Positions 11,898 to 40,845 of a stretch of DNA of 64,000 nt are shown here, in pieces. The stretch is taken from NCBI GenBank assembly GCA_021372375.1, contig JAJFUN010000062.1, positions 1 through 64,000 on the forward strand. The letters are read 5' to 3'. How positions within the stretch are numbered: the first letter of the stretch is position 1; each line of letters begins with the position of its first letter. The position numbers and the translations under genes were made by a program. Source of the DNA: Pelosinus sp. (GTDB lineage Bacteria; Bacillota; Negativicutes; Propionisporales; Propionisporaceae). The notes below the pieces were generated by a model, which saw nothing but the letters and a program-made list of their open reading frames with translations, was not told where the DNA came from and searched no databases.

Positions 11898-12110
11898 AAA
11901 ATAAAAAGCCACACAGAAATCTTAGAAACCCGCATGCCCTCTAGACTTATTATGGAGCTGGTGATGGGACTTAAGCCAGCAATTTTGATGAGTTTTCTAG
12001 TTTCCATTTTTATCCATTAAATATGGTTTTGCAGAGTGTGTTAGAAAAATGTTAGAATATTTTCAAGTTAAATTCGGCGTTCAGTTACATGACCGCCACA
12101 TAAATATTCC
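11898..12110. repeat. diverged third attachment-site copy (end of element A)
   Basis: From 11898 the sequence follows the same order as 15774-16040: AAATAAAAAGCCACACA, TGGAGCTGGTGATGGGACT (the 3' end of tRNA-Thr), then ATGGTTTTGCAGAG and repeated GTTAGAA motifs at 12040-12056. It is less conserved than the 101-bp pair (the tRNA part decays after GGGACT). I read it as the far end of an older, related insertion. The interval 11752-12162 contains no gene I can support. Confidence 0.7.
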
Positions 12111-12162: not shown

Positions 12163-13437
12163 TCATGCTTTAACACTTCCCATTAACTCTACTAAAATCG
12201 ATTCCAAATCAACTAGGGCCTTCTTCTTATCTTCATATGTAATCGAAGATATAATCAACTCTTTTTCTTTCTGATTTTCCAAATGGTAGCACTCCAGAAT
12301 ACCACCAGACGCACCCAATCCTTCATGATGGGGATAGAGTAATACTGTGGCCCTCACTTTCGAATCACGCGTTAAATAAGCGTACATTTGAAAATAATCT
12401 TCACGGGAAACACCATGACGACGAGCTGATTCGCGAATCCATTTCCATTTGGTATCAATAATAAGTTTTTCACCATCTTCGAACTCAATAATTATATCAG
12501 GACGGAGAGAAAACGCACCTCGTCCCGTCTTTTTATGCACCCATAATTTATTTATTCCTGCTTGAATTTTCGTCCGATATGGCAAATATCGAGCACATAA
12601 ATGCCCTACATAAGCCTCAAAAAGATCATTCATGGCAAACAGAATCGAAAAAGCTTCCGTTTTTCCCTGGGTCATGGTCATTACTTGCTTCTGATAGAAT
12701 AGCTTTGCGAGTAGCAGAGCTGGTTCAAAACGCCGGCTCAAACGATCTACGTTAATTTGCGAAGCCTCGGCTACCTGAAAATCTACATCTTCAACCCCCT
12801 CAAAGCGCAGCAAACAGCCTGCCAATAACTCTACTGTATACAAATTTCGTACTCTTGATAATAATAACCGCGTCACTCGCTTCAAAAACTGGTTCAAGCG
12901 TTGATTTACACTAAATTCATCATAGCCGCAAAAAGCCTTGGATAAGCCTCGCATCCGATTGCTAATTTGCTTGGCTACCAACAGCTTGCCGCGTAATAAA
13001 CTCAAATTCTCCTCTTGATAGATATAGCCAGCACATAACCCGCGGCGCAGCTCTTTTATTAACATTTCTGCAAATAATCGTCCAAAAATTTCAAGTAGAC
13101 TGCCTCCAGTCAATTGCTGGAGAGATAAGGTAGAATAAGTAACCTGCAAATAACCGCTTTCTTGCAGCAGCATTAATAAGGCTTGCCGCGATGATTCCTC
13201 TGCATCTACTGCAGATACTTTGGGCAGTATTTCGATTGCCACAGTAGATAACTGAATATAACCTACATAATTAACAATCTTTAACGAGTGCAGTTCCCAC
13301 AGAAAATGGCTTGTCTTGAGCTTATTTTGCCCAATATATCGTTGCAGTTCATCAGCTTCTTGCATTGTAATACCAGCTACCTCATCCTGGCCAATAGGAA
13401 TTGCGGTAGTGGCTTCATAAACAATCAGTCGCTTCAT
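12163..13437 (-). CDS. mcrC: McrC-like component of a modification-dependent restriction system
   Basis: The 424-residue protein matches McrC, the nuclease partner of McrB. The C-terminal half carries a PD-(D/E)XK site: LRPDIIIEFEDGEKLIIDTKWKWI (Asp, then Asp-Thr-Lys). The N-terminal half has the McrC-type beta domain (YVGYIQLSTVAIEILPK). It starts five bases after the McrB stop and so is translated with it. The complex would cut DNA carrying modified cytosines. It sits in the small island between two attachment-site copies. Confidence 0.9.
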   Translation of the reverse strand: MKRLIVYEATTAIPIGQDEVAGITMQEADELQRYIGQNKLKTSHFLWELHSLKIVNYVGYIQLSTVAIEILPKVSAVDAEESSRQALLMLLQESGYLQVTYSTLSLQQLTGGSLLEIFGRLFAEMLIKELRRGLCAGYIYQEENLSLLRGKLLVAKQISNRMRGLSKAFCGYDEFSVNQRLNQFLKRVTRLLLSRVRNLYTVELLAGCLLRFEGVEDVDFQVAEASQINVDRLSRRFEPALLLAKLFYQKQVMTMTQGKTEAFSILFAMNDLFEAYVGHLCARYLPYRTKIQAGINKLWVHKKTGRGAFSLRPDIIIEFEDGEKLIIDTKWKWIRESARRHGVSREDYFQMYAYLTRDSKVRATVLLYPHHEGLGASGGILECYHLENQKEKELIISSITYEDKKKALVDLESILVELMGSVKA

Positions 13438-13442
13438 CTACC

Positions 13443-15377
13443 TCACGGCTCCATACGGCTATATATTCGCTGTACGGCCTTTACAGTAGGTTCTAATACC
13501 ACTTCATAACGTATTTTTTCGCCCATATTTAGCATTTCATCTACATCGACAAATAACTGATCGGGCTTAACCAGATTTTTTGTAATAAAGAAGGATTCTG
13601 CATCACTAGCCCCAGTTTTACCAGCTCCGCCTAAAATAAGCGCAATTTTCTCCCAATCCTCATAAAAATATTCTTGTAATAACGGAATTACTTTTTTGTG
13701 AGTGACCTGAATTAGTTCACTTGCCGTTTGCATTCCGATAAAATAAGCATGTCCTATCATATGATCTCGATCAAATAAATACTCAATGCGCTCATTCATC
13801 ACTTGCAATAATTTTCTAACCTGAATCCCTTCAATAGATTCTGGCAATACATCATAACGCGGCATTAATTCTTTAAAACAAAACCTCCGTCTAAGTGCTG
13901 TATCTAACAGTGCAATGGAACGATCCGCCGTATTCATTGTGCCAATGATATATAGGTTTTGTGGTACACCAAAGCTTTCTTGGGAATAAGGCAGCACCAC
14001 TTTTATTTCGTTTGCCCCGCTTAGACGCTTATCAGGTTCAATTAATGTAATTAATTCGCCAAATATTTTCGATATATTCCCCCGATTAATTTCATCAATT
14101 ATAAGTACATAATTGACTGGCATTATGTCTTCATTTTTACTACTTAATAAATTGCGAACATTATCGATAAGTATATCTTTCTTATAAAATTGATAGATAG
14201 CCTGCTGTGAAAGCACCTTGTCCTTTAAAATTTGCTGCACCGGAATATTAGCATCTGTAACCAGCCACTGCACCTTGCGAAAGTGGGAATACTGAATAGG
14301 CGTATTGGGTTGATATTCATAATCTCCGACAATCTTGGCAATAGCCCGAATTTTATGGTTTCCTTCGGAGATAAAGACTATATCCCCCTCTTTCATCCAG
14401 TTTTTAAAGCGTTGTACTGCTTGAGGACCAAAGCTGCTTCCCTCAGGCTTATGTTTTCCATAAAGAGCTTTTATATCTTCAATTGATGTACAGGTTGTGT
14501 AATCAACATCGCCCCCCCAGCCTAGGGCGATTACATTATTCTCTAAACAATAGCTATAAATATCCTGACCCTCATTATCGTAGATATAGCCTACTGACAT
14601 TTTGTAAAATTCTATCATCGCCTCATCAAACTGATACTGCTGCGCCGGAGCTCCCGCGCTAGCTATAGCAGCATTGCAAATCCTTTTAAATACCCCATCT
14701 TGAAGCTCAAAGCCGCCTTCTTTCACGCTCCGCCAGCCTTCTACAAACTCCTCATAGCCAAAAGACTGATGAAACGTGCAAAAACTGATTTGATTTTGTT
14801 CTACCAAAGAGCGAAAAGCCACCTGGGCCTCTTGCCGATTTGCCGGCTGCTCAATCAACTGCTCATATTTCTTTTGATCAATAATCCGCAAGGCCTCATC
14901 TACCACGCTATATGTCTTGCCCGTCCCAGGAGGCCCAAAAAGAATTAGATTTTTTTCTGTCTCTTGCATTTTCATACCCGCCTTTTGTCGAGGAATACTA
15001 ATTGTCTGCCCTTTTTTACGATTTTCTTTAAGATACGCACGAATACGCCTTACTAATAACGTTAATTCTGTAGTTATTTCATCAGCATAATTTACATGCC
15101 GCCCCAGCCACTTGCATAAATCATCAATACTCCACTTGGGTGATTTATACATGATATTCCCATTTGCATCAATTACTTGAATCAGCGAAAAACCGCCATC
15201 AGGCAGATTAATCATCTCAAAAAAGAATAACTGCCCTGATAGTTTAATTTTTAATTTCAGATAAGATTTTGGCAATTTTTCTGCAGCCTTCGAAGGAATA
15301 AAGGTAAATTCCACAATTTCTACAGTATCACCATTTGATAATACCTTTACTTCACTAACCTCACACTCAAAATCCAT
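13443..15377 (-). CDS. mcrB: McrB-like GTPase/AAA+ subunit with embedded EVE-like domain
   Basis: The 644-residue protein has Walker A GPPGTGKT at about 148-155 and a Walker B/signature LIIDEINRGNISKIFGEL at about 425-441, followed by the sensor NTADRS, as in McrB motor proteins. Between them, at about 262-400, is a segment (VGYIYDNEG, ALGWGGDVDY, GDIVFISEGNHKIRAIAKI) typical of EVE/PUA-like domains that read modified bases. The N-terminal 130 residues are an unassigned domain. ATG 15377 follows AGGGTGG. The upstream DNA carries the repeated palindromic sequence shared with fic and rhuM. Confidence 0.9.
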   Translation of the reverse strand: MDFECEVSEVKVLSNGDTVEIVEFTFIPSKAAEKLPKSYLKLKIKLSGQLFFFEMINLPDGGFSLIQVIDANGNIMYKSPKWSIDDLCKWLGRHVNYADEITTELTLLVRRIRAYLKENRKKGQTISIPRQKAGMKMQETEKNLILFGPPGTGKTYSVVDEALRIIDQKKYEQLIEQPANRQEAQVAFRSLVEQNQISFCTFHQSFGYEEFVEGWRSVKEGGFELQDGVFKRICNAAIASAGAPAQQYQFDEAMIEFYKMSVGYIYDNEGQDIYSYCLENNVIALGWGGDVDYTTCTSIEDIKALYGKHKPEGSSFGPQAVQRFKNWMKEGDIVFISEGNHKIRAIAKIVGDYEYQPNTPIQYSHFRKVQWLVTDANIPVQQILKDKVLSQQAIYQFYKKDILIDNVRNLLSSKNEDIMPVNYVLIIDEINRGNISKIFGELITLIEPDKRLSGANEIKVVLPYSQESFGVPQNLYIIGTMNTADRSIALLDTALRRRFCFKELMPRYDVLPESIEGIQVRKLLQVMNERIEYLFDRDHMIGHAYFIGMQTASELIQVTHKKVIPLLQEYFYEDWEKIALILGGAGKTGASDAESFFITKNLVKPDQLFVDVDEMLNMGEKIRYEVVLEPTVKAVQRIYSRMEP

Positions 15378-15539
15378 AAAAATCCACCCTTATCATCCTT
15401 AGTTCTATTCAATGACAAAAAATAAATCTGTCACGCTATTCGTATTTGCGTTTAACCAGACGCAGTTTTTTTAGGATACATGTAGGCAACCTTCTACAAA
15501 CCAGATAAAAATCCCTCCTTCCATTTATAAGCCATCTAG

Positions 15540-15600
15540 CGTGGGTAAAAAATCAAAAAAATTACCCACGTATTAATAACATGAGTAGTTTTTACCTATT
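15540..15600. promoter_or_regulatory. palindromic regulatory repeat, copy 1 (upstream of mcrBC)
   Basis: CGTGGGTAA (15540-15548) pairs with TTACCCACG (15562-15570), followed by ATAACATGAGTAGTTTTTACC. The same block stands at 17294-17350 and 18763-18820. It is 163 bases upstream of the mcrB start. The outer palindrome seen in copies 2 and 3 is absent here. Confidence 0.65.
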
Positions 15601-15773
15601 TTCCTAATCATAGCTGCAAAATCCGTTTCATTTAACTTATGATACCGAAAGAAGACTTTGCAAACCTATTTATCACCCTTAGAAATGCCATTTGTACCAT
15701 AGAAACACTGGCTTCATAATCATTACCTATACGGAACTGTTTATATACTTTTTCACTATACTCCCCTTTGACA

Positions 15774-15874
15774 AAATAAAAAAGCCACACAGGAATCTTA
15801 GAAACCCGCATGACCTCTAGGCTTGTTATGGAGCTGGTGATGGGACTCGAACCCGCGACCTGCTCATTACGAAT
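15774..15874. repeat. 101-bp direct repeat (distal attachment site)
   Basis: This stretch is identical by eye to 40715-40815 and contains the 3' half of tRNA-Thr up to the anticodon loop (15829-15874), then diverges. It is what integration into the 3' part of a tRNA gene leaves at the far end. Adjacent arms at 15980-16000 carry two GTTAGAA motifs, also found at 40673-40700 beside the integrase. A hairpin with T run (about 15910-15945) follows. Apart from regulatory copy 1 and this site, 15378-16159 holds no supported gene. Confidence 0.9.
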
Positions 15875-17233: not shown

Positions 17234-17264
17234 GTTATAACCTCCTTATGTACAATTCAATTAT

Positions 17265-17370
17265 ATGAGTAATTTTTACTCATATCAAGATAACGTGGGT
17301 AAAAAATCGAAAAAATTACCCACGTTTTTATAACGTGAGTAGTTTTTACCTATATACTATAACATATTAG
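17265..17370. promoter_or_regulatory. palindromic regulatory repeat, copy 2 (upstream of fic)
   Basis: This block has the palindrome TGAGTAATTTTTACTCA (17266-17282), then CGTGGGTAA/TTACCCACG (17294-17302/17316-17324), then GTGAGTAGTTTTTACC and TATATACTATA. It is over 90% identical to copy 3. It lies directly upstream of the fic GTG start and downstream of the rhuM stop. Confidence 0.75.
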
Positions 17371-18643: not shown

Positions 18644-18799
18644 TATGGCGGTAGCTCTATCCAATATGAAACGAAGGAACAGTTTGAAAAATACCGGCAA
18701 TTTATGGACGAAACGTCTTGCCACAGGTTTCATTTGAGTAATTTTTACTCACATCAAGATAACGTGGGTAAAAAATCGAAAAAATTACCCACGTTTTAA
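18644..18799 (+). pseudogene. possible gene fragment, partly overlapping the repeat
   Basis: An open frame without its own start reads YGGSSIQYETKEQFEKYRQF and on into repeat copy 3 until TAA. The first 30 residues look protein-like in composition, so this could be the tail of a gene cut by rearrangement. No family is recognised and chance is not excluded. Confidence 0.25.
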
Positions 18800-18838
18800 T
18801 AACGTGAGTAGTTTTTACCTATATACTATAGCATATTA
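18735..18838. promoter_or_regulatory. palindromic regulatory repeat, copy 3 (upstream of rhuM)
   Basis: TGAGTAATTTTTACTCA (18735-18751), CGTGGGTAA/TTACCCACG (18763-18771/18785-18793) and GTGAGTAGTTTTTACC followed by TATATACTATAGCATATTA repeat copy 2 almost base for base. It lies between the rhuM start and the structured RNA block, so it could serve transcription in both directions. Confidence 0.75.
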
Positions 18839-18849
18839 CTCCCTTGATG

Positions 18850-19990
18850 GCAGAAGACAAAAAAGCATGGCTACTTAGATTCCTGCCCTGCTATCTTTTT
18901 GTCTCAAGACGTCCGGTCTAGTTCTCTCCGCTGCCTCACCTTGTTTTAAGGGCGCTATAAGAAAAGACTCTGAACGCGGGAGAGGGAGGCCCTGGAGCGC
19001 CCTTGCGATAGCACCTTGGGGTGTCTATCGCCCGACTCGACAGGACTTTCGTCGCGAAATCAGGCGAGTGATAAGGCTTGGGCAGCGGCTCTAAAAAATC
19101 TCGAGCCTCACGTCTGCAGCCTCTCCGCTTGGTGAGAAAATGAGGCGAGTGCTAAAGAAATCGATAGCGGGTACAAAAGAAAACTCGAGCCGCCTTGCTA
19201 AAGTTTGCCTCGTGGCCGTGGCAGAAGGCTAACTCGTGACTAGGCCGGTAGATAAAAACTAGTGCCGCTTGATTGTCCTCGACCACCGAAGCTAAGAAGC
19301 GGCATAGTGCGTACCCCCAACATTTTGGCGATACCTCTATGGGGGGTTGGGGGTAGCGGTGCCCCCTGCGCGCTTTTTGCAGGGGGATGACACACCCATC
19401 CTTCCCCCAACAGCTTCAAAATCTCCCATCGCATTCCTCTGTGAGGGGTGGAGAGGGGTTTGGGGGGAGGAGGGGTGTGTCATAGCGGGCGCACTATGCT
19501 GCTTCGTCTCTTGCGATAAGACGAAAAAAGGCCTTTTCCTCTTGTGCTACAATCAAGGCTGACTTCGCGTGGACATGGGGCGTAGTATCCCCGTGGAGCC
19601 GTAGGCGAGCTTAGCCCCATGGACGGCGCGGGAGACAGGCAGACTATTTGCGGGTCGAGTTTACGATGACGCTGCCTCCGGAGGACCATAATGTATAGAT
19701 GCCTTGCGACAATCGGAGCAAGACATGTATACCGCTAATCGGAGCAAGCGAATGCGGAGGCGTTTGCTGCCGATCATTCGCGCCGCGACAACCTCTCGCC
19801 ATTTGATGAGTCTATGAGCGTCAGCGAAAGCCTGCAGCTCACTATTTCGGTCGAGCCCCGCGATGACTCTAGAGTGCAGCGCCCGAAGGGCGTAACGGTT
19901 TTCTTTTGATAAAGCCCTGTAAGCAAAAGCGAGACTTGGTACGGATTCCAAGTCCTGCTCTGCACTTTGGCAGGAATTTTATTTTTCCAC
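18850..19990 (+). ncRNA. candidate giant structured non-coding RNA
   Basis: No plausible protein is encoded here, yet the DNA is GC-rich and full of helices. Examples: 18855-18863/18896-18904 (9 bp); GGGCGCT 18950-18956/18996-19002; an 11-bp hairpin with TTGG loop at 19005-19031; 19296-19311/19490-19505, a 16-bp long-range helix with one G-U pair. That helix encloses three hairpins: 19312-19321/19346-19355 (10 bp), 19362-19369/19379-19386 (8 bp) and 19387-19408/19462-19483 (22 bp, one mismatch and one G-U). CATGGGGC 19574-19581 pairs with 19614-19621. ATTCCTGCC near 18880 can pair with GGCAGGAAT near 19970, closing the whole molecule. A + strand terminator ends it. Size and phage-like setting recall the GOLLD and ROOL classes of ornate RNA, but I cannot match it to either. 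Confidence 0.6.
19950..19987 (+). terminator. terminator of the structured RNA
   Basis: TCCTGC (19953-19958) pairs with GCAGGA (19970-19975), followed on the + strand by ATTTTATTTTT. It suggests that the block at 18.85-19.99 kb is transcribed on the + strand, opposite to all neighbouring protein genes. Confidence 0.6.
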
Positions 19991-20011: not shown

Positions 20012-20049
20012 AAAATACAATAAAGGACTTACCGCTTAAGATAAGTCCT
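20012..20049 (-). terminator. hairpin AGGACTTA...TAAGTCCT
   Basis: AGGACTTA (20024-20031) pairs with TAAGTCCT (20042-20049); the minus strand continues TTATTGTATTTT. A near copy of this hairpin lies at 46993-47020. Confidence 0.55.
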
Positions 20050-20059
20050 CTTGATATAT

Positions 20060-20480
20060 AGCTTTTAATACAAGAGCCCGTAATGATCTACGCTACAGCC
20101 AATACCGATTATTACATACCTATACGCAAACTTTCGCCTACCCACAAGCATTACACGACCGATACTGACCTTTGCTCGACTACTGAACATACCTGCCGAA
20201 CCTACTGCAATCGTTAGACTGCAATAGACCCATCATAGCGTTCCCCGGGGTAACTCTCCAGCACCCCCAGCAGTCTTAGCTCGACAGCCATACATCCCTT
20301 TCGACCACACGACAACAGTTGGGCTGCCGTACAGCCTTGGGAGACATATAACCATCTGCCCGCCGACTACTACCGAGCCTTGCGACCCGGCAGTAATCTT
20401 TGGCCGACCAATGCCGAACACCTTGCGATATCCGACACCAGTCTTGGCTCAACCATTACGAACCCTTGTGATGTTATTAT
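20060..20480 (-). repeat. degenerate tandem repeats of about 21 nt
   Basis: Read on the minus strand, units of about 19-25 bases recur around a TCG...CAAGG core (for example GTCGGCCAAAGATTACTGCC, GTCGCAAGGCTCGGTAGTAG, AGCAAAGGTCAGTATCGGTC). Frames are broken by stops, although one 62-codon stretch (20233-20421) is open and rich in Gly and Val. The block lies between the AGGACTTA hairpin and a TTGGTCATAATAACATCACA motif (minus strand). This may be a decayed repeat-protein gene or part of an RNA. I see no supported gene here. Confidence 0.5.
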
Positions 20481-20558
20481 GACCAATATCATCAATATAA
20501 CTCTTGGTAAATCATAGAATTAAATTTTATATCTATTTATGATATCCCGCAAACGATG

Positions 20559-20651
20559 AAAAAAAGTTAACCCCAGGAGCAAAGGAATTCTAAGTACATA
20601 CGTACCTACTCCCATTCGGGAACCCAGCTTTTGTCCTTCGCAGGTTAACTT
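20559..20651 (-). ncRNA. compact four-helix RNA with intrinsic terminator
   Basis: On the minus strand GTTAACC (20649-20643) pairs with GGTTAAC (20572-20566). Inside it GCGAAGG pairs with CCTTTGC, and that helix encloses two hairpins, TCCC-GAAT-GGGA and AGGTAC-GTAT-GTACTT. Seven Ts follow the outer stem at 20565-20559. This could be a small RNA or a structured 3' end of the DUF1659 cassette transcript. Confidence 0.5.
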
Positions 20652-20734
20652 GCTAACTATATTATGCCACACTAATAAAATTCATGCCATACTCTTCAAA
20701 AACTTGGCGACATATATACACCTCATGACTTTTT

Positions 20735-23508: not shown

Positions 23509-24582
23509 TTAATTATGTCCATACCCGACTGTATAATTTGTTGCATAAAAACAACCTGGTACAGTATCTCTACCTAGATTGTATATACTAAATTTTGCTC
23601 CTATCTTAGGAATATCATCAATTGTATTATCCAACCCACGAATGGTGAAAAAGCTATCCATATCCCTAATTTTTAAAGTAAGTTTTCCATTGTTTGAAGG
23701 TTTAATTTCACTAATAAAACCTCTTACATCAATAGGCCAAAGTGGATGCTCCGATTTTGTTTCCCAATATTTATCACAAGCAGGACGAAAGCCACAATAT
23801 CTACATGAGTTTGGCGTAGGATTTGCAAGTGCTTGATTTTGACCTAACAGTAGCTTTTCATTAATATCTCTCAATAATGAGATGGCTTGTTCAATAAGAA
23901 GGATGCATTCATCCGGAATAAAGTCAACATCTTTTTCATAACAATCCAACCCAATAACTGAAGCCCTTGCAGGCCAGACTTTAAATTTTTTATAATATAG
24001 TGCCGCATACATTCTTAATTGAAGTACATATTCTAATTTCACAATGCCCCATTGTTCATCGAATACAGTTCCACTTTTAAAATCAACAATATGAATTCCA
24101 GAAGAAGACTGTCGTACTAAATCAATAAATCCACCAACTTGTTTATCCGGGCTCTCCACCCAAACCTCTGATTTAGTTAAGCCTAATGCCTTCCCTGAGT
24201 ACTGCTTAAATCCGATAAGATTCCTTATAAGGGCAAAGCAACTCTCCTTCTTCACGTCATAATTGTGAGCATGTATTCTTAATGGTATAAATCTATTTTC
24301 TAGAGACGATTTTCGCATAGTATGTTCTATTTCAGATATTTTCATCTCCCATTTTTCAAGCATTTCTTCTTCATTTCTTATAAAGCCCTTTGAGGTATCT
24401 TCTATTAAGTTGTGAATTAGAGTACCAATTTTTGCAGAAGGGGACCCCGGTAAAAGCGGATCCCTTTTACCATTTGCTGTCAATAATTCCCTCAGTGGAC
24501 AGTTTTTCAGTGATAGGAAACGGCTAGGTGATATTCTCGTCAAGGGTTTCGCTATTATTTTAGGTAGAGAAGCTATCATCAT
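23509..24582 (-). CDS. RecB/Cas4-like PD-(D/E)XK nuclease with Fe-S cysteines
   Basis: The protein of 357 residues shows the RecB/Cas4 layout: an N-terminal Cys (LKNCPLREL), IGTLIHNLIED, the catalytic GGFIDLVRQ with IVDFKSG (Asp, Asp-x-Lys), QLRMYAALY, and a Cys triplet CRYCGFRPACDKYW. With the early Cys this makes a 4Fe-4S site as in AddB/Cas4. About 80 further residues form a beta-rich OB-like tail. ATG 24582 overlaps the DruE stop by four bases (ATGA), so it is translationally coupled to the helicase gene. It is not one of the four core Druantia type II genes. Confidence 0.88.
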   Translation of the reverse strand: MMIASLPKIIAKPLTRISPSRFLSLKNCPLRELLTANGKRDPLLPGSPSAKIGTLIHNLIEDTSKGFIRNEEEMLEKWEMKISEIEHTMRKSSLENRFIPLRIHAHNYDVKKESCFALIRNLIGFKQYSGKALGLTKSEVWVESPDKQVGGFIDLVRQSSSGIHIVDFKSGTVFDEQWGIVKLEYVLQLRMYAALYYKKFKVWPARASVIGLDCYEKDVDFIPDECILLIEQAISLLRDINEKLLLGQNQALANPTPNSCRYCGFRPACDKYWETKSEHPLWPIDVRGFISEIKPSNNGKLTLKIRDMDSFFTIRGLDNTIDDIPKIGAKFSIYNLGRDTVPGCFYATNYTVGYGHN

Positions 24583-27500
24583 GGTGCATTTCGGACCATA
24601 AAGCGATGGCAATCACCAGGTCGACGTAATAAATTAAACGTGTCAATAAATTCCGCGTCACCACCTGCCGACACTACTGCTTTTGCGAGTAAGCCTGTAG
24701 GATTTAATATATTCCATAATGGATGGACAACAACAAACCTTCGCTGGCCTGCAATAAATCCAGGTAATTGATCAAAATTTGCTGCCTGATAATTGAAAAA
24801 GGTTGCAAATTTATCCCTTTCTCTGATAGCAATATCTGGCCAGTCACGCAGTTCTGGAACAGTAAAGTTACCATCCAGCCCCACATTATGTTGAGCATCC
24901 AAAAGAATACGTATGTAGGACATTGCCAGTCGCCAATCCAGTAAACCGTGATATGGCATATTTCGATAAACCTTTAAGCAATCGTAACATGCGGAATCAC
25001 ATCTATGATTACTATTAATAATAGTATCTGCGTATGATCCTGCATATGGTTTACACGTTTCCGTAAGCATATCTTTAAAGTGCATCCACAAATATCTTGT
25101 AAACCCAGCCCCATTTGGTAACCGATCGCTTAGTACCATATCAGCAATACCTGGCTGCCCGGGGTTAAACTCTTCTCTAGATATGTTGGCAATTTCAATT
25201 TCGTCAGGATCAATATCTAGTTTCCCCGCGAGTACTCGCCTAAGTAAGAATGCAGCAGAATATACCGCTCCCCGTACACCACCAGGTAAGGAATAACGTA
25301 CATCTGGATCTAACATAACTCCGGCTGGTACTTGAGTAGGAATTATATGAAGGACATCTGTTGTTTTTCCCGCGCCAAGAGCAACCTTTTCGGCATTGTT
25401 ATTATTCCCGTCAGTAAATCGACAAGCTATCCACTGCCTTTCTAATCTTGGTCCGCTTCCTGGAGAGGGCGTTATACGTTGAGTTCCTTCAAATAATTGG
25501 CCAGCATTATCATTTACTCTCCAAACCCTTCCGTCCTGAGCTAGATAAACACTAGCATTTGTACCACTAACGTTTGTTAAAGATAACCCCTGAGAAGTCT
25601 CAACTAAAAGACTAGGTGATCCAAAACTAATCTCATTATCCTCTTTAGCATTAGCTCCTCGTGATAAATCTGTTCTAAAGGCTTGTGGCGTTGCAACTTG
25701 AAATTTTGTAAACATATCTGGGGCGCCGCATTCTGGACATGCATCTTCATTAGGCTCAGAATCATGCGTAGAGGTTTTACCACATTTTTTACAGCGTAAC
25801 ATCCACTTTCGGTACGGGAGAGGATCACCTATTGATACCCAACGATTATTGGCCCACATCAAGGAACCGGTAAAACCAATAGCTGTGTGAATAACTTTAT
25901 CCTTAGTTTTTTGTGCCCCCGGAGCGAATTCACTTATTGCCAACTCTAAGTCCCTATCTATTGTAAAGCCTTTATCTCCTTCTAAACGATGATATAAAAG
26001 ACGAGTCCTAGTTGGCATACCGTACATAGGTAATATAGCCCCCTCTGCTAATCGCTCTGCCATTCCTTGACCTGTTAATTCAGGTGATATAGCAACTTTA
26101 TCTATTTGTGATGGCAGAACTTTAGAAAGCCATTCCAGTGTACCGAGATCTTGCTTGCCCAAGAGAGCTTGAATTACTTGTTTTTGCTCCTGATTCTGCG
26201 TAGCTAACCACTGCAATACAGCTGCTCTATTTTGTGTCCAGCCCGCTACTCCATCAACATCTTCAACAAGACCAAATTCCCCATGACTATCTGGTGGTTT
26301 CGGCCCGTGCCACCATCGCATTCCCGCTGAATGAAAAGCACGGCGTAAGCATTCTTTTGCAATCATGCGTTTTTGAATACGCTCTTGGTCCATGGTCAAA
26401 AACGGAACTGGTGGCGGATCGCCTGTTATCTTTTCAGGTTTGGAAAAGTAATACTCATCATGACTACGACCTCTACATAATGTCAATACAACTGCAAATG
26501 CCTGTCCACGGCGCCCTGCACGGCCCACTCTTTGCTGATAATTAAATCTCATTGGAGGCATATTGGCTAACTGTACCGCCTGCAGGCTTCCAATATCTAC
26601 ACCCACTTCCATGGTTGTAGTAACACTTAGAGCATCTATTTCGTCGACACTTTGATAATAATTTCTTGTCTGATTAGCTAAATTAGTGACAATCCCTCGG
26701 AAATGTCTCTGACGTTCCCCCTGATCATCCGACTGCGCCGTTAATTCCTCACAATGCAGTCGGAGAGGGGGACGACCGGAGACGACTGGATGGGCAATGT
26801 AATTCTTCTTCCATATAAACTCGCAAGTATTATCCGCAGTATGATCCAAAGTACATAAACAATTCGTACATATTCCAGCCGAATAGTGTAAGTGATATCG
26901 CCCACAACGAGGGCAAGTCCACACTGGATCTGCATTAACCGATACCCGAACATCAAGCAATCTTGTAGTTAAAATAGCATTTTGGTGTCCTGCATCGTGT
27001 AACAGATCAAATACTGTCGTGCCTAATAGATTCTCACCAATTCCAACCTTTTTCGAAACAGCTCTAATATATTTTTTTATAGATGCCTTACATGATGAGT
27101 AATTAATACTTCCTTGTATTGTATCATCATATTTTGACGGGCTGTATCTGTAATTATCGCCTAAGATTCGAATAAAAGAATCGCAAATCTGTGTCAGTTC
27201 TTCCTTAGTAATACCTAAATTATTCGATGCATACTGAATATCCATTATAGATGTATGTGCTTTAAGCCATCCTAACCCTGATGATTCTAAACCAAAATAT
27301 AGTCTTCCGAAAAATAAATCGCCAATAGACTTCAACAAAGCATCAGTCACATCATTCTTAGCTTTTTGTGTTGTTATGGGCAGATTTTGATACCATTCTT
27401 GGTTTTGAACATCAAATAATTCGGTCCAATGATGCTCTCTATTATCCCACTCAAAACTCTGGACTTCAAGATCGTTGCCCGCAGGATTTACACCAAGAGA

Positions 27501-30299
27501 TAAAAACCGTTTTATTAATCGTCCACAAGTGTTATTATCGGCTAATACAGAAGCAATACTTATTATTCTTTCGGAGGCGATAGTTCGTATTTCCTGTAAT
27601 CGTTTAACTGCTTCATCCCGTTTCTGGCACAAATCTGCTTCTTGGGCGGGCGGCAATATTCCAGACGGTATTGGGTTATTCTCATATTGTAGGTCTACCG
27701 ATATCTGCTCTTTAGCATCACGATTGGCTTCTAAATATTCTTTAGCATATGGGCCCAAATTAGCCCGGCTATTGGAGATATCATCTAACAATTCCGGTTT
27801 TCCTAAAACAAGTGACCTAATTTCGTGTAGTACAATCTCTCGAGTTAATTCTGAATAATGATTGCGTTCTACGCCATTTGCAATTTGAGCTGCATCCTCA
27901 CGACTATCGGAAAATATAACAAGCTTACGTTTTGCCCAATAAGGAAGCTGGTAAAATAGTTCTTTTGTAAAAACCTGGCTTACTTTCGAAAAACCAGTTC
28001 TAAATCCCCGAATTGGCGATTTACGTTGGCGTCTCGTATGATTGGCTGAGCATGCTGGACACACGCAGGGCAAAGCTCTATGCTGCTGCAAATTTGTATC
28101 ATTAGGTTCATTAATACAAAAAAGATAGCCTCTTACCCAGTTATCAGGATCTATAATAGCCTTGTCATGAGTCAGTTCTACATTACCCGTCAAATTACTA
28201 AGGCTTGCCTCTACCCACTCTGCTTCTGTCGCAGGCGTCCATTTACCGGTAAGATCGTTGCGATGGGCATTTATAGACGGCTGTTGCCAAGTCCCAGTAA
28301 AACCGAATGTTTGATTTTCACTCGGCCAAAAAACAGCATAATCCAAAAAAGTACGACGCTCAACAAACCTAGCAGGCTGTCGATCAGGTATACCCTCAAT
28401 ATCCGGATCTGTAGCAAGCATTTCTATGGAACCATTAGCCTGCTTTAACCGACTCCCCCCCAACATTACTGTGCCACAATGCTCACAGTAAAGGAGTTCT
28501 AGTACTCTATGTCCTGTTGTCCTACAAATTATTTGTGACGAAGGGAAGAGCTCTCCAACTGGACGACCTGTAAGAGGTTTAGTAGAAGCCCAAAGACCTT
28601 CAATATTTCGGAAGAAATAATGAAGTCTAAATGAGGGTAAAGATGTTTTTGCATGTATTGCATCAAATAGTCCTCTCGAAATTAGTAGTCCTCTAACTGC
28701 TTTACGCCACTCCGGATAGTTCCCAAAAATATTCTGCGAAAAATCCCATAGTGAAACTGCTTTTAGTTCTTGACATACTTCACACGCTTTTAACATCCGT
28801 TCATTTATATTAAGTTTTGGATTGTTTAACCATTGTAGATACTTGTCCATACCTATACCAACCATAGCTTGCCCCCCAAGCATTTGGGTTGCTTGTTCAA
28901 AAACCCATTCCGGAATGTTTGGATAATGATCCGCAATAAGAGTAAATGGATCTCCTGGTAAGTACTTATTTCCTGATATATCTTGTAGTGGCGGTGTTTT
29001 TCCCTCAATAACCTCAAAATTTGTCTGTCCAAAAAAATCCTGAAGAAACTGATGACTTTCTGGATTGTTCGCCTGAAGTGAAGCACTAGACGCTAATATC
29101 CGAAGTTGAGGATGACCAGGAGTAAGCCCTAATCTTAATAATAGTAATCTGAGTAAGTAAGCTACCTCCGCACCAGCTGTTCCACGATATAAATGTAACT
29201 CATCAACAACAAGATGGAAAATGCGATCTTTCTTTACCTGTGCACGTTGACCACTAGGTACATCATCGCCTTGGAGCCATTGTCTAGTTTTCTCAAAAAT
29301 ATGCTTATCTTCGTCACGCATAAGCATAATACTTAACATCGAAAAATTTGTAATGAAAATGTCAGGTGGTGCTTCCTGCATGTCCCAGCGACAGCGCATC
29401 TCACTACCGTCTAATCGAGGAAAAAAATAAATTGTATCTGAATCTGATTCGGGGTTGTTCGCATACTGTAACGCCTTTTGCGAAGTATCATCTATTATAG
29501 TTAGTTTTTTAACTAAATTGTCTAAACGCTTCTTGTCAGGATCCACTCCCCCTTTTTTATACTCGTGCCCTGCAATTGGAGTTTCACCATTGTACCGTCC
29601 TAAATAAATCTTATTACCATTGGCATTGGTTGATAGCCATTTCCGAGCACGCTCTGAATCCAGCGCTTTTCTTAATCGTGTTAACTGATCTTCTACTAAA
29701 GCGTTCATAGGATATAAAACTAATGCTCTTACGGCTGCCGGTCTTGTCTCATGTCCTCTTTGAGAAACACGGTAACTCCGTTCAAGATTACTTTCATTTT
29801 TTTTACACGAATTTAGCCAAGATGAATTCTTCCACCAATCATTTATATTCGCCGGTGCTTGTTGAGGCGGCGACCAGCTACAGATTTCCTTTGATAATTG
29901 TGCGAAAAGCGGCATAAGAAAAGATTCCGTTTTACCTGCACCTGTTCCGGCAGTTATAACACAATTTTTTCCATCCATAGCCTTCTGCAACATCTCATAT
30001 TGGTGACTATACAGGGGAAAATCCTCCATTAGTCCGCAATTTACTAACTCTTTAAATACGACTAATTCGGAAGATGTAAGGCCAGGAATATCTTGTACCG
30101 TTAACTGATCAATGTTTTTATTACTACTCTTATACCTAGGAAGAGGCTCTACTAAAGGTTCTCTGCTTAATACCCGATCTTTATAAAGAAGCTTTTCTCT
30201 CTCTTCCTCCAGTAATGGAAAACGAGTTCCAAATGCAGTTTTTATATAAAGAATGAAGTTATCTCGTATTTTATCAAAAGAACCTATCGGATCAATCAT
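24579..30299 (-). CDS. druE: giant DruE-like helicase with DUF1998
   Basis: The 1906-residue protein is an SF2 helicase: Walker A AGTGAGKT near residue 117, VVDELHLYRGTAGAE (motif II, DELH), LASSASL (motif III), EVGVDIGSLQAVQ and QRVGRAGRRGQ (motifs V and VI). Several zinc-ribbon pairs follow (CPRCGRYHLHYS, CKKCGKTSTHD...CPECG). The end has a DUF1998 cysteine cluster (CDSACYDCLKVYRN, LDWRLA). Size and DUF1998 match DruE of Druantia systems; DrmA of DISARM is a less likely alternative given the neighbours. ATG 30299 follows GGAGGGAG and overlaps the upstream gene by eight bases. Confidence 0.85.
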   Translation of the reverse strand: MIDPIGSFDKIRDNFILYIKTAFGTRFPLLEEEREKLLYKDRVLSREPLVEPLPRYKSSNKNIDQLTVQDIPGLTSSELVVFKELVNCGLMEDFPLYSHQYEMLQKAMDGKNCVITAGTGAGKTESFLMPLFAQLSKEICSWSPPQQAPANINDWWKNSSWLNSCKKNESNLERSYRVSQRGHETRPAAVRALVLYPMNALVEDQLTRLRKALDSERARKWLSTNANGNKIYLGRYNGETPIAGHEYKKGGVDPDKKRLDNLVKKLTIIDDTSQKALQYANNPESDSDTIYFFPRLDGSEMRCRWDMQEAPPDIFITNFSMLSIMLMRDEDKHIFEKTRQWLQGDDVPSGQRAQVKKDRIFHLVVDELHLYRGTAGAEVAYLLRLLLLRLGLTPGHPQLRILASSASLQANNPESHQFLQDFFGQTNFEVIEGKTPPLQDISGNKYLPGDPFTLIADHYPNIPEWVFEQATQMLGGQAMVGIGMDKYLQWLNNPKLNINERMLKACEVCQELKAVSLWDFSQNIFGNYPEWRKAVRGLLISRGLFDAIHAKTSLPSFRLHYFFRNIEGLWASTKPLTGRPVGELFPSSQIICRTTGHRVLELLYCEHCGTVMLGGSRLKQANGSIEMLATDPDIEGIPDRQPARFVERRTFLDYAVFWPSENQTFGFTGTWQQPSINAHRNDLTGKWTPATEAEWVEASLSNLTGNVELTHDKAIIDPDNWVRGYLFCINEPNDTNLQQHRALPCVCPACSANHTRRQRKSPIRGFRTGFSKVSQVFTKELFYQLPYWAKRKLVIFSDSREDAAQIANGVERNHYSELTREIVLHEIRSLVLGKPELLDDISNSRANLGPYAKEYLEANRDAKEQISVDLQYENNPIPSGILPPAQEADLCQKRDEAVKRLQEIRTIASERIISIASVLADNNTCGRLIKRFLSLGVNPAGNDLEVQSFEWDNREHHWTELFDVQNQEWYQNLPITTQKAKNDVTDALLKSIGDLFFGRLYFGLESSGLGWLKAHTSIMDIQYASNNLGITKEELTQICDSFIRILGDNYRYSPSKYDDTIQGSINYSSCKASIKKYIRAVSKKVGIGENLLGTTVFDLLHDAGHQNAILTTRLLDVRVSVNADPVWTCPRCGRYHLHYSAGICTNCLCTLDHTADNTCEFIWKKNYIAHPVVSGRPPLRLHCEELTAQSDDQGERQRHFRGIVTNLANQTRNYYQSVDEIDALSVTTTMEVGVDIGSLQAVQLANMPPMRFNYQQRVGRAGRRGQAFAVVLTLCRGRSHDEYYFSKPEKITGDPPPVPFLTMDQERIQKRMIAKECLRRAFHSAGMRWWHGPKPPDSHGEFGLVEDVDGVAGWTQNRAAVLQWLATQNQEQKQVIQALLGKQDLGTLEWLSKVLPSQIDKVAISPELTGQGMAERLAEGAILPMYGMPTRTRLLYHRLEGDKGFTIDRDLELAISEFAPGAQKTKDKVIHTAIGFTGSLMWANNRWVSIGDPLPYRKWMLRCKKCGKTSTHDSEPNEDACPECGAPDMFTKFQVATPQAFRTDLSRGANAKEDNEISFGSPSLLVETSQGLSLTNVSGTNASVYLAQDGRVWRVNDNAGQLFEGTQRITPSPGSGPRLERQWIACRFTDGNNNNAEKVALGAGKTTDVLHIIPTQVPAGVMLDPDVRYSLPGGVRGAVYSAAFLLRRVLAGKLDIDPDEIEIANISREEFNPGQPGIADMVLSDRLPNGAGFTRYLWMHFKDMLTETCKPYAGSYADTIINSNHRCDSACYDCLKVYRNMPYHGLLDWRLAMSYIRILLDAQHNVGLDGNFTVPELRDWPDIAIRERDKFATFFNYQAANFDQLPGFIAGQRRFVVVHPLWNILNPTGLLAKAVVSAGGDAEFIDTFNLLRRPGDCHRFMVRNAP

Positions 30300-31290
30300 T
30301 AATTTCTCCCTCCTCATATGAAGAAAAATCGTATGGTTGTAACTTTTGGCTAATCTTTTCTGCTATACCTGTAGCAATATTTAGAGGTACACCGAAATAT
30401 AAATCCATATTCAATCTGGTCGAAGGCCCCAGAACTCTTCCTTCGATATACCCCTCATTTGCAGCATATCCAGAAGATAATGCCGCAGCCCGAGCCAGTA
30501 ATCGGGGCAAAGGAACAAAACAAGGAACCCCAAGAATATGTCTTACCTTATCATAAAATAAAACGTTGAGCGCAGCCTTTTTTAAAACCATATACCGTCC
30601 CCAATCTCGATCAATTTCTACACTTTTCCCCTCAAAACTCCAGACATGAAACTTCTTTTGCGTATAAGGATCAGTAAATTCTAGTAATCCACTGACATTT
30701 TCACCTCGTCTCACTGATACAAAGTGAAGCCTTTCTAATGAAAACTGTCTACAGCTCCAATTAACACTGCTACTAATGTATCGTTGGAGAGTTGTTTCAT
30801 ATTCTTCCATACTGGATGTAGAGTGCATTATAACCCATGCCGCAGGTACATCAGATTGAATATCCATTCTTAAACTAACTGCTATCCGATTCAATAGAGA
30901 TCGCTCCACTACACTAACACTAATTTTATCTGGTAGTGGAATCCTTGCACGCTGTTGAGGACTCATACTAACTACCATCTGTTCCCGATTGGAACTTTGT
31001 AAATTCATTAAACTACGGATCATCTTAGGAGTTCGAGCCCCTGTCAATATTGCAGTATAGCACCCACGGCCAGGTAATAGCACGAGCTCAGGCCTACAGC
31101 AGTATACCCGTCTTCTGGAATAATCAAATTCACAGTGGGCAAGTTCCTCCATATGACGAGCTATTCGACGTCTGACATTGTTTGCATTTTCCTCACCTAT
31201 AGCATCACTATAAAGATAATCAATTGCTCTATCAAAGTCTGCAAATGAAATATCTCCTCTTGTTGCTAGTATCTCAAGTAATTGACTCAC
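30292..31290 (-). CDS. druG: DruG-like protein, middle gene of the Druantia-like operon
   Basis: The 332-residue protein has an N-terminal winged-helix-like part (ISFADFDRAIDYLYSD, RRRIARHMEELAHCEFDYSR) and a mixed C-terminal region (GVPCFVPLPRLLARAAAL) with no catalytic motif I can name. The identification rests on position: methyltransferase, two unknown proteins, then a giant DUF1998 helicase is the order described for Druantia type II (DruM-DruF-DruG-DruE). It overlaps both neighbours (four bases with DruF, eight with DruE), so the three are one coupled unit. Confidence 0.6.
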   Translation of the reverse strand: MSQLLEILATRGDISFADFDRAIDYLYSDAIGEENANNVRRRIARHMEELAHCEFDYSRRRVYCCRPELVLLPGRGCYTAILTGARTPKMIRSLMNLQSSNREQMVVSMSPQQRARIPLPDKISVSVVERSLLNRIAVSLRMDIQSDVPAAWVIMHSTSSMEEYETTLQRYISSSVNWSCRQFSLERLHFVSVRRGENVSGLLEFTDPYTQKKFHVWSFEGKSVEIDRDWGRYMVLKKAALNVLFYDKVRHILGVPCFVPLPRLLARAAALSSGYAANEGYIEGRVLGPSTRLNMDLYFGVPLNIATGIAEKISQKLQPYDFSSYEEGEIND

Positions 31291-33308
31291 AGCCTTCTCG
31301 CCTCTTTTTTGTAATTATTCCACATCTTAGCAAGAGTTTTCAAGCCAGGAGGAACTACATCGTAAAAAGTAAATATTTTTCTCCACTTCTTCCAATCATA
31401 CGTGATTTTTCTATCACTAAACTTAATATTAGCGATATCATCTAAGTGTCCAACATAATGAGCTTGCCATTTGTCTCTCCTAATTTTGGTAATTGCCCAA
31501 ACCGGATCCCACCCCGAAGGCAGACCTTCACCCGGCCAAAATACTATCTCTCCTGGATTACTGCCTAGAAATATTATTCGATGCGATAAATACGTTGGGA
31601 ACTCAGCATTATAAAGTGGTATATTTCTCAATATTTCTCCACTAACATTTGCTGCAGTAATTGTGCAATAACTGTTACTTATCTCCATTGGCTTTCCAAA
31701 ATGATCTCTCATTAACGGCTCATATTTATCCCTAATTCCCGATTCTTCTAGTTGCATAGTCGCTCTAACTGTCCGATCAGCAATACTAACCTCTATAGGA
31801 ATTGGTTGTGAGACCGGAAGATCACTGGGTAATTCCCATAATCCATCATTACCTAAGCTCAAAGCACATCCCAATGTCATCGGGGTAACATCAACGGGAC
31901 ATCCTTCTATTGCAATTTTCGGTGGCGCGAAATCAAAATATTTATTGCCCCTATCGGACTTGACCCCACCGACAAAATTCATTGATATAGAAATAGGAAG
32001 TCTTAAAACATCGATTCTTGAATGAGATTGTATGACATTTTCTATTTCAAACAATCGCCATCCTATGGGAAGACCATTTATAACATGATTTTCGCGAAAT
32101 ACTTGACATGACTTAGGACCCCATTCTGCAATTTCTTGTACATAATTATTACTACATGCTACAAAATACTTCGTGTTTGTCTGTATCGTATTGGTTTCAA
32201 TAAAACGGGGAAGTTTTTCCCTCATTCCATTTACAAATAATCGAACCTCTCTACCACAGAGGCGAACCCTCCAATTACCCGTTTCATCGCTAAATAATTC
32301 CCCCTCAGTCCAATTGAGATAACCTGCATCCAATATCCCCTTAGTACCTGGATCATAAAACTCAGTGCTCCATGAGTGAATAGAACCCCGACAGGCCCAC
32401 GTCGATTGGTCACGTTCCCTTATAAAAAACATTTCTTCTTCAGGTAAATCACGATTCACTTTAAATCTGATGGAGGATTTTACTGACTGCGAAACACTAT
32501 TATATTCAATGCATAGCCTAGCTGATCCAAAAATTCTAAAACCTTCCGCCGATAAACCTTCATTCTCCGCTCCTACATCACCAGACCAATCTTTTAAGTC
32601 CGCCGCGATTAAATCTATCAAGGCATCCCTCAAATCAGCAGTATCCCTTTCTTCACTTTGAAGTAATCGGCGAGTTCTCATCTGTAATTCAGAATGATTG
32701 CAAATCGCTTTCGATAATACCGATAAGTTGGGCGGACATGTCGGATCAAATCCATATTCTGCAAAAATCCTAGGAAGTGCAGCTCTTTCGTCTGCTGTGA
32801 TCAAGGTCTGTGATAAAGGAAAACCGACATGTACCCAACTCCCTCTAATTCGAGCTGAAAATCGACCTAAAGTCTCAACCATATCGGTCCTACTCCATAC
32901 TTCGAGATCCTGCCATAATTCATACATTCTACGAAATGAAGCAGGCGCTCCAATATCTGCTGGGTTACCTAAGAGTTGATTTAATCTTGGATAATATGCG
33001 TGACTAGAAAATTCTCCCTCTGTACCAGCAGCTAATACAAAGAAAACAAGATAAGCAACATATTGAGGCTTTCCCCAATTACTTCTCCAGTTATAATAAA
33101 TGTCATAGGCCTTTTGGCACAAATATGTCTTATTTGACCAATGCGGTCCTTTCTTAATTGCCGTAATAAAATCATTAAAGTCCGCTCCGGATCTCTCCCC
33201 TATTTTGCTGATTAAGGTTGCATCAGCAAAAAGTATAACTTCTCTTCCAGCCGCGGAAGGATTAAAAAAATAGTCTCGTAAACAGGTATTCCATTCCTGA
33301 TAGTTCAT
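31287..33308 (-). CDS. druF: DruF-like protein, first gene of the coupled Druantia-like unit
   Basis: The 673-residue protein has a helical N-terminus (WNTCLRDYFFNPSAAGREVI, YNWRSNWGKPQYVAYL) and a beta-rich remainder (FKVNRDLPEEEMFFIRERD, YVQEIAEWGPKSCQVF). No catalytic motif is recognised. It starts at ATG 33308 behind GGGGAGAG and ends ATGA-overlapping the next gene. Assigned to DruF only by gene order and size between a cytosine methyltransferase and DruG/DruE-like genes. A role in DNA recognition or complex building is inference. Confidence 0.6.
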   Translation of the reverse strand: MNYQEWNTCLRDYFFNPSAAGREVILFADATLISKIGERSGADFNDFITAIKKGPHWSNKTYLCQKAYDIYYNWRSNWGKPQYVAYLVFFVLAAGTEGEFSSHAYYPRLNQLLGNPADIGAPASFRRMYELWQDLEVWSRTDMVETLGRFSARIRGSWVHVGFPLSQTLITADERAALPRIFAEYGFDPTCPPNLSVLSKAICNHSELQMRTRRLLQSEERDTADLRDALIDLIAADLKDWSGDVGAENEGLSAEGFRIFGSARLCIEYNSVSQSVKSSIRFKVNRDLPEEEMFFIRERDQSTWACRGSIHSWSTEFYDPGTKGILDAGYLNWTEGELFSDETGNWRVRLCGREVRLFVNGMREKLPRFIETNTIQTNTKYFVACSNNYVQEIAEWGPKSCQVFRENHVINGLPIGWRLFEIENVIQSHSRIDVLRLPISISMNFVGGVKSDRGNKYFDFAPPKIAIEGCPVDVTPMTLGCALSLGNDGLWELPSDLPVSQPIPIEVSIADRTVRATMQLEESGIRDKYEPLMRDHFGKPMEISNSYCTITAANVSGEILRNIPLYNAEFPTYLSHRIIFLGSNPGEIVFWPGEGLPSGWDPVWAITKIRRDKWQAHYVGHLDDIANIKFSDRKITYDWKKWRKIFTFYDVVPPGLKTLAKMWNNYKKEARRL

Positions 33309-39450: not shown

Positions 39451-40641
39451 ATGCTTGGAAGCCTACACAAAAAAGGAAAAACGTACTATGTAGTTTTTGA
39501 TGAAGGCCGCGATCCTGTGACCAACAAGCGCAAGCAAAAATGGGTAAGTCTCAAAACCAGCGACAAAAAAACAGCCGAGGCCAAATACTCTGATATGGTG
39601 AAAAAAATTAACACCGAGGAATATACTGAACCCACCAAAATGCAGTTAGCCGAGTACCTCGAATATTGGCTCAAGAACTACGCCAAACACAGCGTCCGTC
39701 CATCAACCTATGGCGACTACGAATGCATTGTCCGCCAGCACTTCATTCCCGCCCTCGGCAAATATCCGCTTGCTAAATTATCCCCGCTTCATATCCAGGA
39801 GTTTCTAAACCAAAAACTTGCAACAAAGCTTTCATCCTCTACTGTGCGCAAACTATATGCCGTACTTCGCAAGGCTTTAAACAATGCTCTAAAATGGCAC
39901 CTTATCACAATAAACCCGTGCCTTGCCGTTGATCCGCCCCGCATCGAAAAATATAAAGCTGTCGTCTATTCGCCAGAGCAGCTAGAGGCTCTGTTTGGCG
40001 CCGCCTCAACTGAACAAATCTACCTTCCTGTACTCATTTCCGCCACCTGCGGCCTGCGCCGCGGCGAAGTATGCGGCCTCAGATGGAGCGATATCGACCT
40101 CGAGCGCAGCGTGCTATTTGTCCGAAACTCCCTTGACTGGCAAGACAGCCGCCTAACCTTAGTGCCGCTAAAAACCGCATCCAGCGAGCGAGCCGTCAAA
40201 CTGCCGCAGCTCACCCTGACCGCCCTAAAAACAGAAAAAAGCCGCCAAGCGGAAGATAAACTTCGCGCCGGCGGCATGTATGACGACCAAAACTTTGTCT
40301 GGGCCTGGGATGACGGCAGGCCTCACGATCCATTTTTCCTGTACAAACATTTCATAAAAACCATTCAAGACTACAACGATGCCCTTGATAGCGACATAGA
40401 CCTCACACCAGAACAAAAAACTGCCGCTAAACTGCCGACGATCCGCTTTCACGACCTCAGACACAGCCACGCGACAGCCCTCCTCCTCGCCGGTGTCCCC
40501 GTCAAAGTCATCAGCGAACGCCTCGGCCACTCCAGTATCACCATCACCCAGGACATTTATTCCCACGTATTACCTGAAATGCAGCAGCAAGCCGCTGACG
40601 AAATTGACAAGATGTTTGCCAAGAATCACGGTCAAAAATAA
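39451..40641 (+). CDS. int: tyrosine recombinase (integrase) of element B
   Basis: The 396-residue integrase has an AP2-like arm-binding N-terminus (GKTYYVVFDEGRDPVTNKRK), a SAM-like core-binding domain (QLAEYLEYWLKNYAKHSVRP) and a catalytic domain with R (CGLRRGEVCGLRW), HxxR (FHDLRHSHA), the second His (RLGHSSI) and Tyr (TQDIYSHVL). It follows AAGGAGG and points at tRNA-Thr, ending 128 bases from it. Together with the 101-bp repeat this fixes the target of integration. Confidence 0.95.
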   Translation: MLGSLHKKGKTYYVVFDEGRDPVTNKRKQKWVSLKTSDKKTAEAKYSDMVKKINTEEYTEPTKMQLAEYLEYWLKNYAKHSVRPSTYGDYECIVRQHFIPALGKYPLAKLSPLHIQEFLNQKLATKLSSSTVRKLYAVLRKALNNALKWHLITINPCLAVDPPRIEKYKAVVYSPEQLEALFGAASTEQIYLPVLISATCGLRRGEVCGLRWSDIDLERSVLFVRNSLDWQDSRLTLVPLKTASSERAVKLPQLTLTALKTEKSRQAEDKLRAGGMYDDQNFVWAWDDGRPHDPFFLYKHFIKTIQDYNDALDSDIDLTPEQKTAAKLPTIRFHDLRHSHATALLLAGVPVKVISERLGHSSITITQDIYSHVLPEMQQQAADEIDKMFAKNHGQK

Positions 40642-40714: not shown

Positions 40715-40815
40715 AAATAAAAAAGCCACACAGGAATCTTAGAAACCCGCATGACCTCTAGGCTTGTTATGGAGCTGGTGATGGGACTCGAACCCGCGAC
40801 CTGCTCATTACGAAT
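40715..40815. repeat. 101-bp direct repeat (tRNA-side attachment site)
   Basis: Identical by eye to 15774-15874. It spans the 3' half of tRNA-Thr (40770-40815) and 55 bases beyond. Three GTTAGAA motifs (40673-40698) next to it match arms at the other end and may be integrase arm sites. Confidence 0.9.
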
Positions 40816-40845
40816 GAGCTGCTCTACCAACTGAGCTACACCAGC
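40770..40845 (-). tRNA. tRNA-Thr (anticodon CGT)
   Basis: The minus strand folds as a full cloverleaf: acceptor GCTGGTG/CACCAGC, D arm with AGTTGGTA, anticodon stem GCTCA/TGAGC around TTCGTAA, T arm GCGGG-TTCGAGT-CCCAT, discriminator T and an encoded CCA. Anticodon CGT reads ACG (Thr). It is the target gene of both integrated elements. Confidence 0.95.

Follow-up and report, generated by a model that had tools for sequence, protein, structure and literature searches.

The plus-strand block at positions 18850-19990 has been read from the sequence alone as a candidate giant non-coding RNA of a phage-satellite-like element, with covariation among homologues proposed as a check. This raises the questions of whether the block is an RNA gene, whether it belongs to a known family such as GOLLD or ROOL, and what surrounds it. 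The window analysed here is the whole stretch of 64,000 nucleotides from Pelosinus sp. (contig JAJFUN010000062.1). The features of the block are as follows.

18850-19990, plus strand: the block, a gene-free, GC-rich candidate structured RNA without known relative (from fold and homology searches)
18928-19108, plus strand: 5' domain, multibranch, closed by CGCTGCC/GGCAGCG, with hairpins at 18948-19004 and 19005-19031 (from ensemble defect and z)
19290-19510, plus strand: central four-way junction, a 16-bp helix around hairpins of 10, 8, and about 22 bp (from z and G-U counts)
19711-19748, plus strand: two AATCGGAGCAAG copies, 26 nt apart, in loops or flanks of adjacent hairpins
19959-19987, plus strand: weak terminator-like hairpin and T-run, not clearly above chance

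Coding potential, folding, and transcription signals of the block

The GC content of the block is about 0.53 and that of the upstream DNA is about 0.35. The longest stop-to-stop ORF in the block has about 105 amino acids, the two longest ORFs match no Pfam family, and the IMG/VR scans with the block pseudo-translations (three plus-strand frames and the longest ORF) identified no relative. These three results bear out the statement of the sequence-only reading that the block holds no credible gene. A protein reading of the block was dropped because its ORFs belong to no family. The neighbours of the block are all on the minus strand, so the block as read on the plus strand does run opposite to them, as had been stated.

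The whole block is more stable than its shuffles on both strands (z = -6.0 on plus and -7.4 on minus), so stability alone cannot pick the strand. Most of the whole-block z is contributed by the centre (19290-19510), where z is -9.75 with 100 shuffles and -7.45 with 200 shuffles. The four-way junction in the centre is real and lies beyond shuffles. Its 16-bp helix (19296-19311/19490-19505) consists of 15 Watson-Crick pairs and one G-U pair (19301/19500), and it encloses a first hairpin of 10 bp (19312-19321/19346-19355), a second hairpin of 8 bp (approximately 19365-19372/19380-19387), and a third hairpin in which 22 of 24 positions are paired (19387-19410/19460-19483). The helix and the three enclosed hairpins of 10, 8, and 22 bp that had been described are therefore found in the sequence. 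The fold of the centre has 10 G-U pairs on the plus strand and none on the minus strand, which suits RNA-level selection on the plus strand. Outside the centre, the G-U counts give no preference for the plus strand.

The ensemble defect of the 5' domain is 0.057 on the plus strand, which is lower than in 300 of 300 shuffles (z -2.9), and 0.116 on the minus strand, so the plus strand folds more cleanly. Its stem at 18948-18956/18996-19004 has 9 bp. The individual stems that had been listed at 18950/18996, 19005-19031, and 19933/19948 are present (the last at approximately 19932-19938/19949-19955). The listed 19574/19614 stem can pair, but the fold of its segment is poorly determined (ensemble defect 0.72).

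The segments 19110-19290 and 19556-19690 fold at the shuffle level, and for about one third of the block the fold does not surpass that of shuffles. Folding beyond shuffles was found for 18928-19108 and 19290-19510 and not for the remaining block; as these domains were picked after viewing the fold, the significance given for them is too high. The block has three perfect helices of 10 bp or more, compared with 0.23 expected from shuffles. Without the centre, it has three helices of at least 9 bp (0.63 expected) and none that reaches 10 bp, so the excess is slight. The many perfect helices that had been noted are thus confirmed as an excess of long helices, but little of it is left outside the centre.

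The signals at the ends of the block are less distinct. The 9-bp helix that would pair the two ends (approximately 18879-18887/19969-19977) exists, as had been proposed, but two alternatives compete with it, a local hairpin of 9 bp at the 5' end and the stem of the terminator. The proposed plus-strand terminator does have a stem and a T-run, but the stem is weak (5 bp), and sites of this kind show no clear enrichment (5 found, 2.9 +/- 2.0 expected). A search for a plus-strand promoter of the block gave no convincing site. A strong hairpin with a T-run is present on the minus strand at 18810-18786.

This minus-strand hairpin, together with the minus-strand z of the whole block and the minus orientation of all neighbours, would fit a block that is transcribed from the minus strand and carries its structure there, for example as the leader or read-through of the RhuM gene. 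However, both the 5' domain and the centre are better or richer in G-U pairs on the plus strand, and R1, an adjacent minus-strand RNA described below, terminates on its own at 20022, which means that any read-through must be weak. We consider a minus-strand transcript improbable, and the most improbable of the explanations that do not invoke a known RNA family.

Relatives of the block and known giant RNAs

The block was compared with Rfam using cmscan and matched no family, including GOLLD, ROOL, and OLE, either at gathering thresholds or when filters were permissive and matches up to E<=5 were allowed. The search by blastn against its own genome recovered the block and otherwise short matches at chance level, and a DNA search at genus level returned no homologue. 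Chance matches of at most 45 bases were obtained from 380 genomes of the class, from about 390-398 other genomes of the phylum, from 50,697 phage records, and from 72,556 plasmids. A single-sequence covariance model of 18928-19108 gave a best non-self score of 16.5 bits among the 380 class genomes, which is at chance level. The IMG/VR scan with an 18-mer of the block gave six matches that share nothing beyond a 19-mer, and the IMG/VR scan with its repeat-motif pattern gave none. The GTDB scan with the doubled ATCGGAGCAAG motif gave 12 matches; their surroundings are unlike the block and they were rejected as relatives. The flanks of four of these 12 matches are near-identical to one another, which is what a single shared coding gene would produce.

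The block is therefore an unproven, orphan candidate RNA with no relative among the genomes, phages, plasmids, and viral contigs searched. Covariation cannot be assessed from one sequence, which is an absence of data and not evidence against an RNA. For the same reason, a new class of giant RNA is neither confirmed nor excluded.

GOLLD is often longer than 800 nt (PMC12286853). The block is similar to GOLLD in being large, multibranch, and non-coding, and in lying on prophage-like DNA, where an integrase, an ERF recombinase, and attachment repeats were found. It differs from GOLLD in three respects: it has no covariance-model match, it lacks homologues, in contrast to the universally conserved 3' half of GOLLD, and it has no tRNA in or beside it whereas GOLLD is near or contains tRNA genes. 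The block also resembles ROOL, a large ornate RNA of phages and prophages, in that its ends possibly pair, and it differs from ROOL in lacking a covariance-model match and a conserved relative. A divergent GOLLD or ROOL RNA would account for the size, the multibranch fold, the prophage-like setting, and the possible pairing of the ends. However, the models of both families return nothing at any threshold tried, and the sole tRNA in the window (40770-40845) is 21 kb from the block. Membership in GOLLD or ROOL, the RNAs that the block had been said to recall, is unsupported, and we regard it as extremely unlikely.

The absence of relatives and of a promoter is also what would be expected if the block were decaying or non-functional foreign GC-rich DNA of the island, with one strong palindrome cluster and a remainder that folds as any sequence of 55% GC. 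The two segments at the shuffle level and the step in GC content relative to the flanks point in the same direction. In contrast, the 5' domain surpasses 300 of 300 shuffles, and the centre nests three hairpins within a 16-bp helix. We consider decaying DNA doubtful, although it is the foremost of the alternatives.

The integrative island around the block

The block sits in an island of about 25 kb that lies at the 3' end of a tRNA-Thr gene and is flanked by identical repeats of 101 bp. The features that delimit and mark this island are as follows.

15774-15874, no strand: far attachment-site repeat, 101 bp, 100% identical to 40715-40815
40715-40815, no strand: attachment-site repeat overlapping the 3' end of tRNA-Thr
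39451-40641, plus strand: tyrosine integrase of the island, adjoining the tRNA
18732-18838, no strand: 107-bp palindromic repeat, with copies at 17263-17369 (96%) and 15509-15615 (70%)

The integrase is followed by genes for an ERF recombinase, a PD-(D/E)XK/Cas4-like (RecB/Cas4-like) nuclease, and a cytosine methylase. SSB-like, VRR-nuclease-like, and HTH-type ORFs were read by eye, and further genes of the island are NOV_C, amidase_3, DUF1659, DUF2922, RhuM, and Fic. No capsid or terminase gene was seen on the island in a search that was not exhaustive for small ORFs. Judged from its gene content and repeats, the island is an integrative, prophage- or satellite-like element of about 25 kb. 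The phage-satellite-like setting that had been proposed is thus supported by the attachment repeats, by the integrase, ERF, and SSB-like genes, and by the lack of a visible capsid or terminase gene.

The island also carries a Druantia-like system at 23509-33308 (DruE, DruF, DruL, and DruK), for which the best models are type IV/II. A third, decayed copy of the attachment repeat is present at 11898-11998. McrBC (12163-15377) lies just outside the island, between the second and third repeat copies, and the interval between 11898 and 15774 holds an older second unit with McrBC. The RhuM, Fic, and McrB genes each have a copy of the 107-bp palindromic repeat upstream, and this repeat has the look of an operator or leader common to defence genes that are unrelated to one another.

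An integrative element that encodes ERF, an SSB-like protein, and nucleases could use the block at the DNA level, as a replication origin, a packaging site, or a transfer site whose cruciform helices are bound as DNA or single-stranded DNA without any RNA product. The stability of the hairpins on both strands (z -6 and -7.4) and the duplication of AATCGGAGCAAG agree with such an element. However, the G-U pairs of the centre occur on the plus strand only, a multibranch fold of 1.1 kb is large for an origin, and no iteron array was found in the block. A DNA-level element is unlikely, and clearly more so than decaying DNA.

We favour, at slightly less than even confidence, the reading that the block is an untranslated functional RNA gene of the mobile island on the plus strand. 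This RNA gene is favoured by the centre far beyond shuffles, the low defect of the 5' domain and its cleaner plus-strand fold, the plus-only G-U pairs of the centre, the excess of helices of at least 10 bp, the absence of any protein by Pfam and pseudo-translation, and the integrative prophage-like setting. It is weakened by the lack of a homologue and hence of covariation, by the third of the block at the shuffle level, by the weak terminator and the absence of a clear promoter, and by a plus strand that is no more stable than the minus strand. The RNA would be produced during activity of the island or of an invading phage. At least its 5' domain and four-way junction would fold stably, and its remainder would be loose or poorly determined. 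By analogy with GOLLD and ROOL, which are thought to serve their phages, it would probably act in trans as a structural RNA encoded by the element. If transcribed, the block would be one more orphan among the few known giant RNAs of phage type.

R1 and R2, two RNAs beside the block

The following minus-strand features lie beyond the 3' end of the block.

20022-20051, minus strand: R1 terminator with a 12-bp stem
20063-20484, minus strand: R1, a covarying RNA of about 400 nt, convergent with the block (from alignment, z, and the lack of an Rfam match)
20558-20652, minus strand: R2, an RNA of about 95 nt that has a terminator of its own; DUF3644 genes are convergent with it elsewhere and absent here

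The stronger feature at this locus, which the sequence-only reading had missed, is R1. It exhibits the covariation that had been proposed as a check for the block, and it matters more than the block. The z of R1 is about -12 to -13 relative to shuffles, and the region 20020-20500 has 55 G-U pairs on the minus strand and 6 on the plus strand. The fold of R1 comprises a ring of long arms, which are rich in invariant G-U pairs, and a closing helix of roughly 15 bp. The arms are joined by repeated purine-rich linkers, such as the conserved GUCGAGCNAAG, of the GUCGAGC-AAG type.

R1 has relatives that are 74-87% identical in 39 of the 380 class genomes, often with two copies each. Weaker relatives (65-75%, often partial) are present in about 40 further Bacillota genomes from many other families. 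The alignment of 41 sequences, three of which are from outside the class, supports 141 pairs with 98.5% of cells paired. Both sides have changed in 87 of the 141 pairs, compared with 39.3 in shuffles and 22-31 with slid partners. A second, overlapping alignment of 60 sequences gives the same picture. Judged by covariation, R1 is a genuine conserved RNA family.

No family of Rfam 15 matches R1 at gathering thresholds or at E<=5. The literature search, whose coverage is incomplete, returned no description of R1, so the term undescribed is provisional. R1 is similar to OLE and raiA in being large, highly conserved in Bacillota, richly structured, and encoded apart from targets, and it differs from them in matching no Rfam family and in its closing helix with a ring of G-U-rich arms. 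The significance of R1 is that an RNA of about 400 nt with 141 well-supported pairs occurs in much of the class and in other Bacillota and is not in Rfam 15. RNAs so strictly conserved tend to belong to cellular machines. The flanking genes, read from sequence as lysA-like, feoA/B-like, and uvrC-like, differ among the R1 loci, so R1 is probably a trans-acting RNA and not a leader.

The spore-coat gene spoIVA is present in 35 of the 39 R1-bearing class genomes and in 51 class genomes overall, so R1 is nearly confined within the class to genomes that carry this gene. The four R1 genomes without spoIVA include the genome of this window and incomplete ones. This co-occurrence is an immediate testable lead on R1, though it is confounded by ancestry: shared ancestry could explain the link within the class. 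The genome of this window has no SpoIVA match though genomes of the same family have one, through either a loss of sporulation or an assembly gap (93% complete).

The tree places the island copy of R1 as sister to the host's own second copy (locus L056, 3528-4055), which suggests that the island captured or shares the host RNA. The host's second copy has an extra arm of 131 nt (L056, 3611-3741), which is a long perfect hairpin inside one arm. One genome has tandem R1 copies about 150 bp apart (locus L058, 3699-4093 and 4245-4643). R1 was rejected as generally plasmid- or phage-borne, given that plasmids gave no match and phages gave R2 and one match at chance level. The block was likewise rejected as a standard neighbour of R1, since no R1 locus of other genomes has it. 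The block and R1 are separate, convergent features that share the island here, and R1 has its own terminator (20051-20022). The block could conceivably be the first of a new class of giant RNA on a satellite-like island, facing a captured R1 of the host family whose nearest relative is the host's second copy, and the pair could form an RNA-based interface between island and host, for example by serving the R1 machinery of the host as decoy or partner. We consider this improbable, about as much so as the DNA-level element.

R2 carries a promoter-like site and a terminator, and it matches no Rfam family. Its relatives (loci L096, L110, and L128-L131) lie beside a gene for a protein with DUF3644 and EC042_2821 domains in all six relatives checked, of which four are in phages or satellites and two are bacterial loci. 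This protein partner gene is missing in the window. AbiF is a HEPN-type protein of phages with a small structured RNA alongside (PMC12373285). R2 differs from AbiF in its partner, which has the Pfam domains DUF3644 and EC042_2821, in being convergent with the gene, and in the lack of an Rfam family. R2 is similar to the AbiF RNA in being a small structured RNA beside a HEPN-type gene on phages, a tie of analogy alone. R2 may be the RNA component of a defence or toxin-antitoxin unit of the HEPN type.
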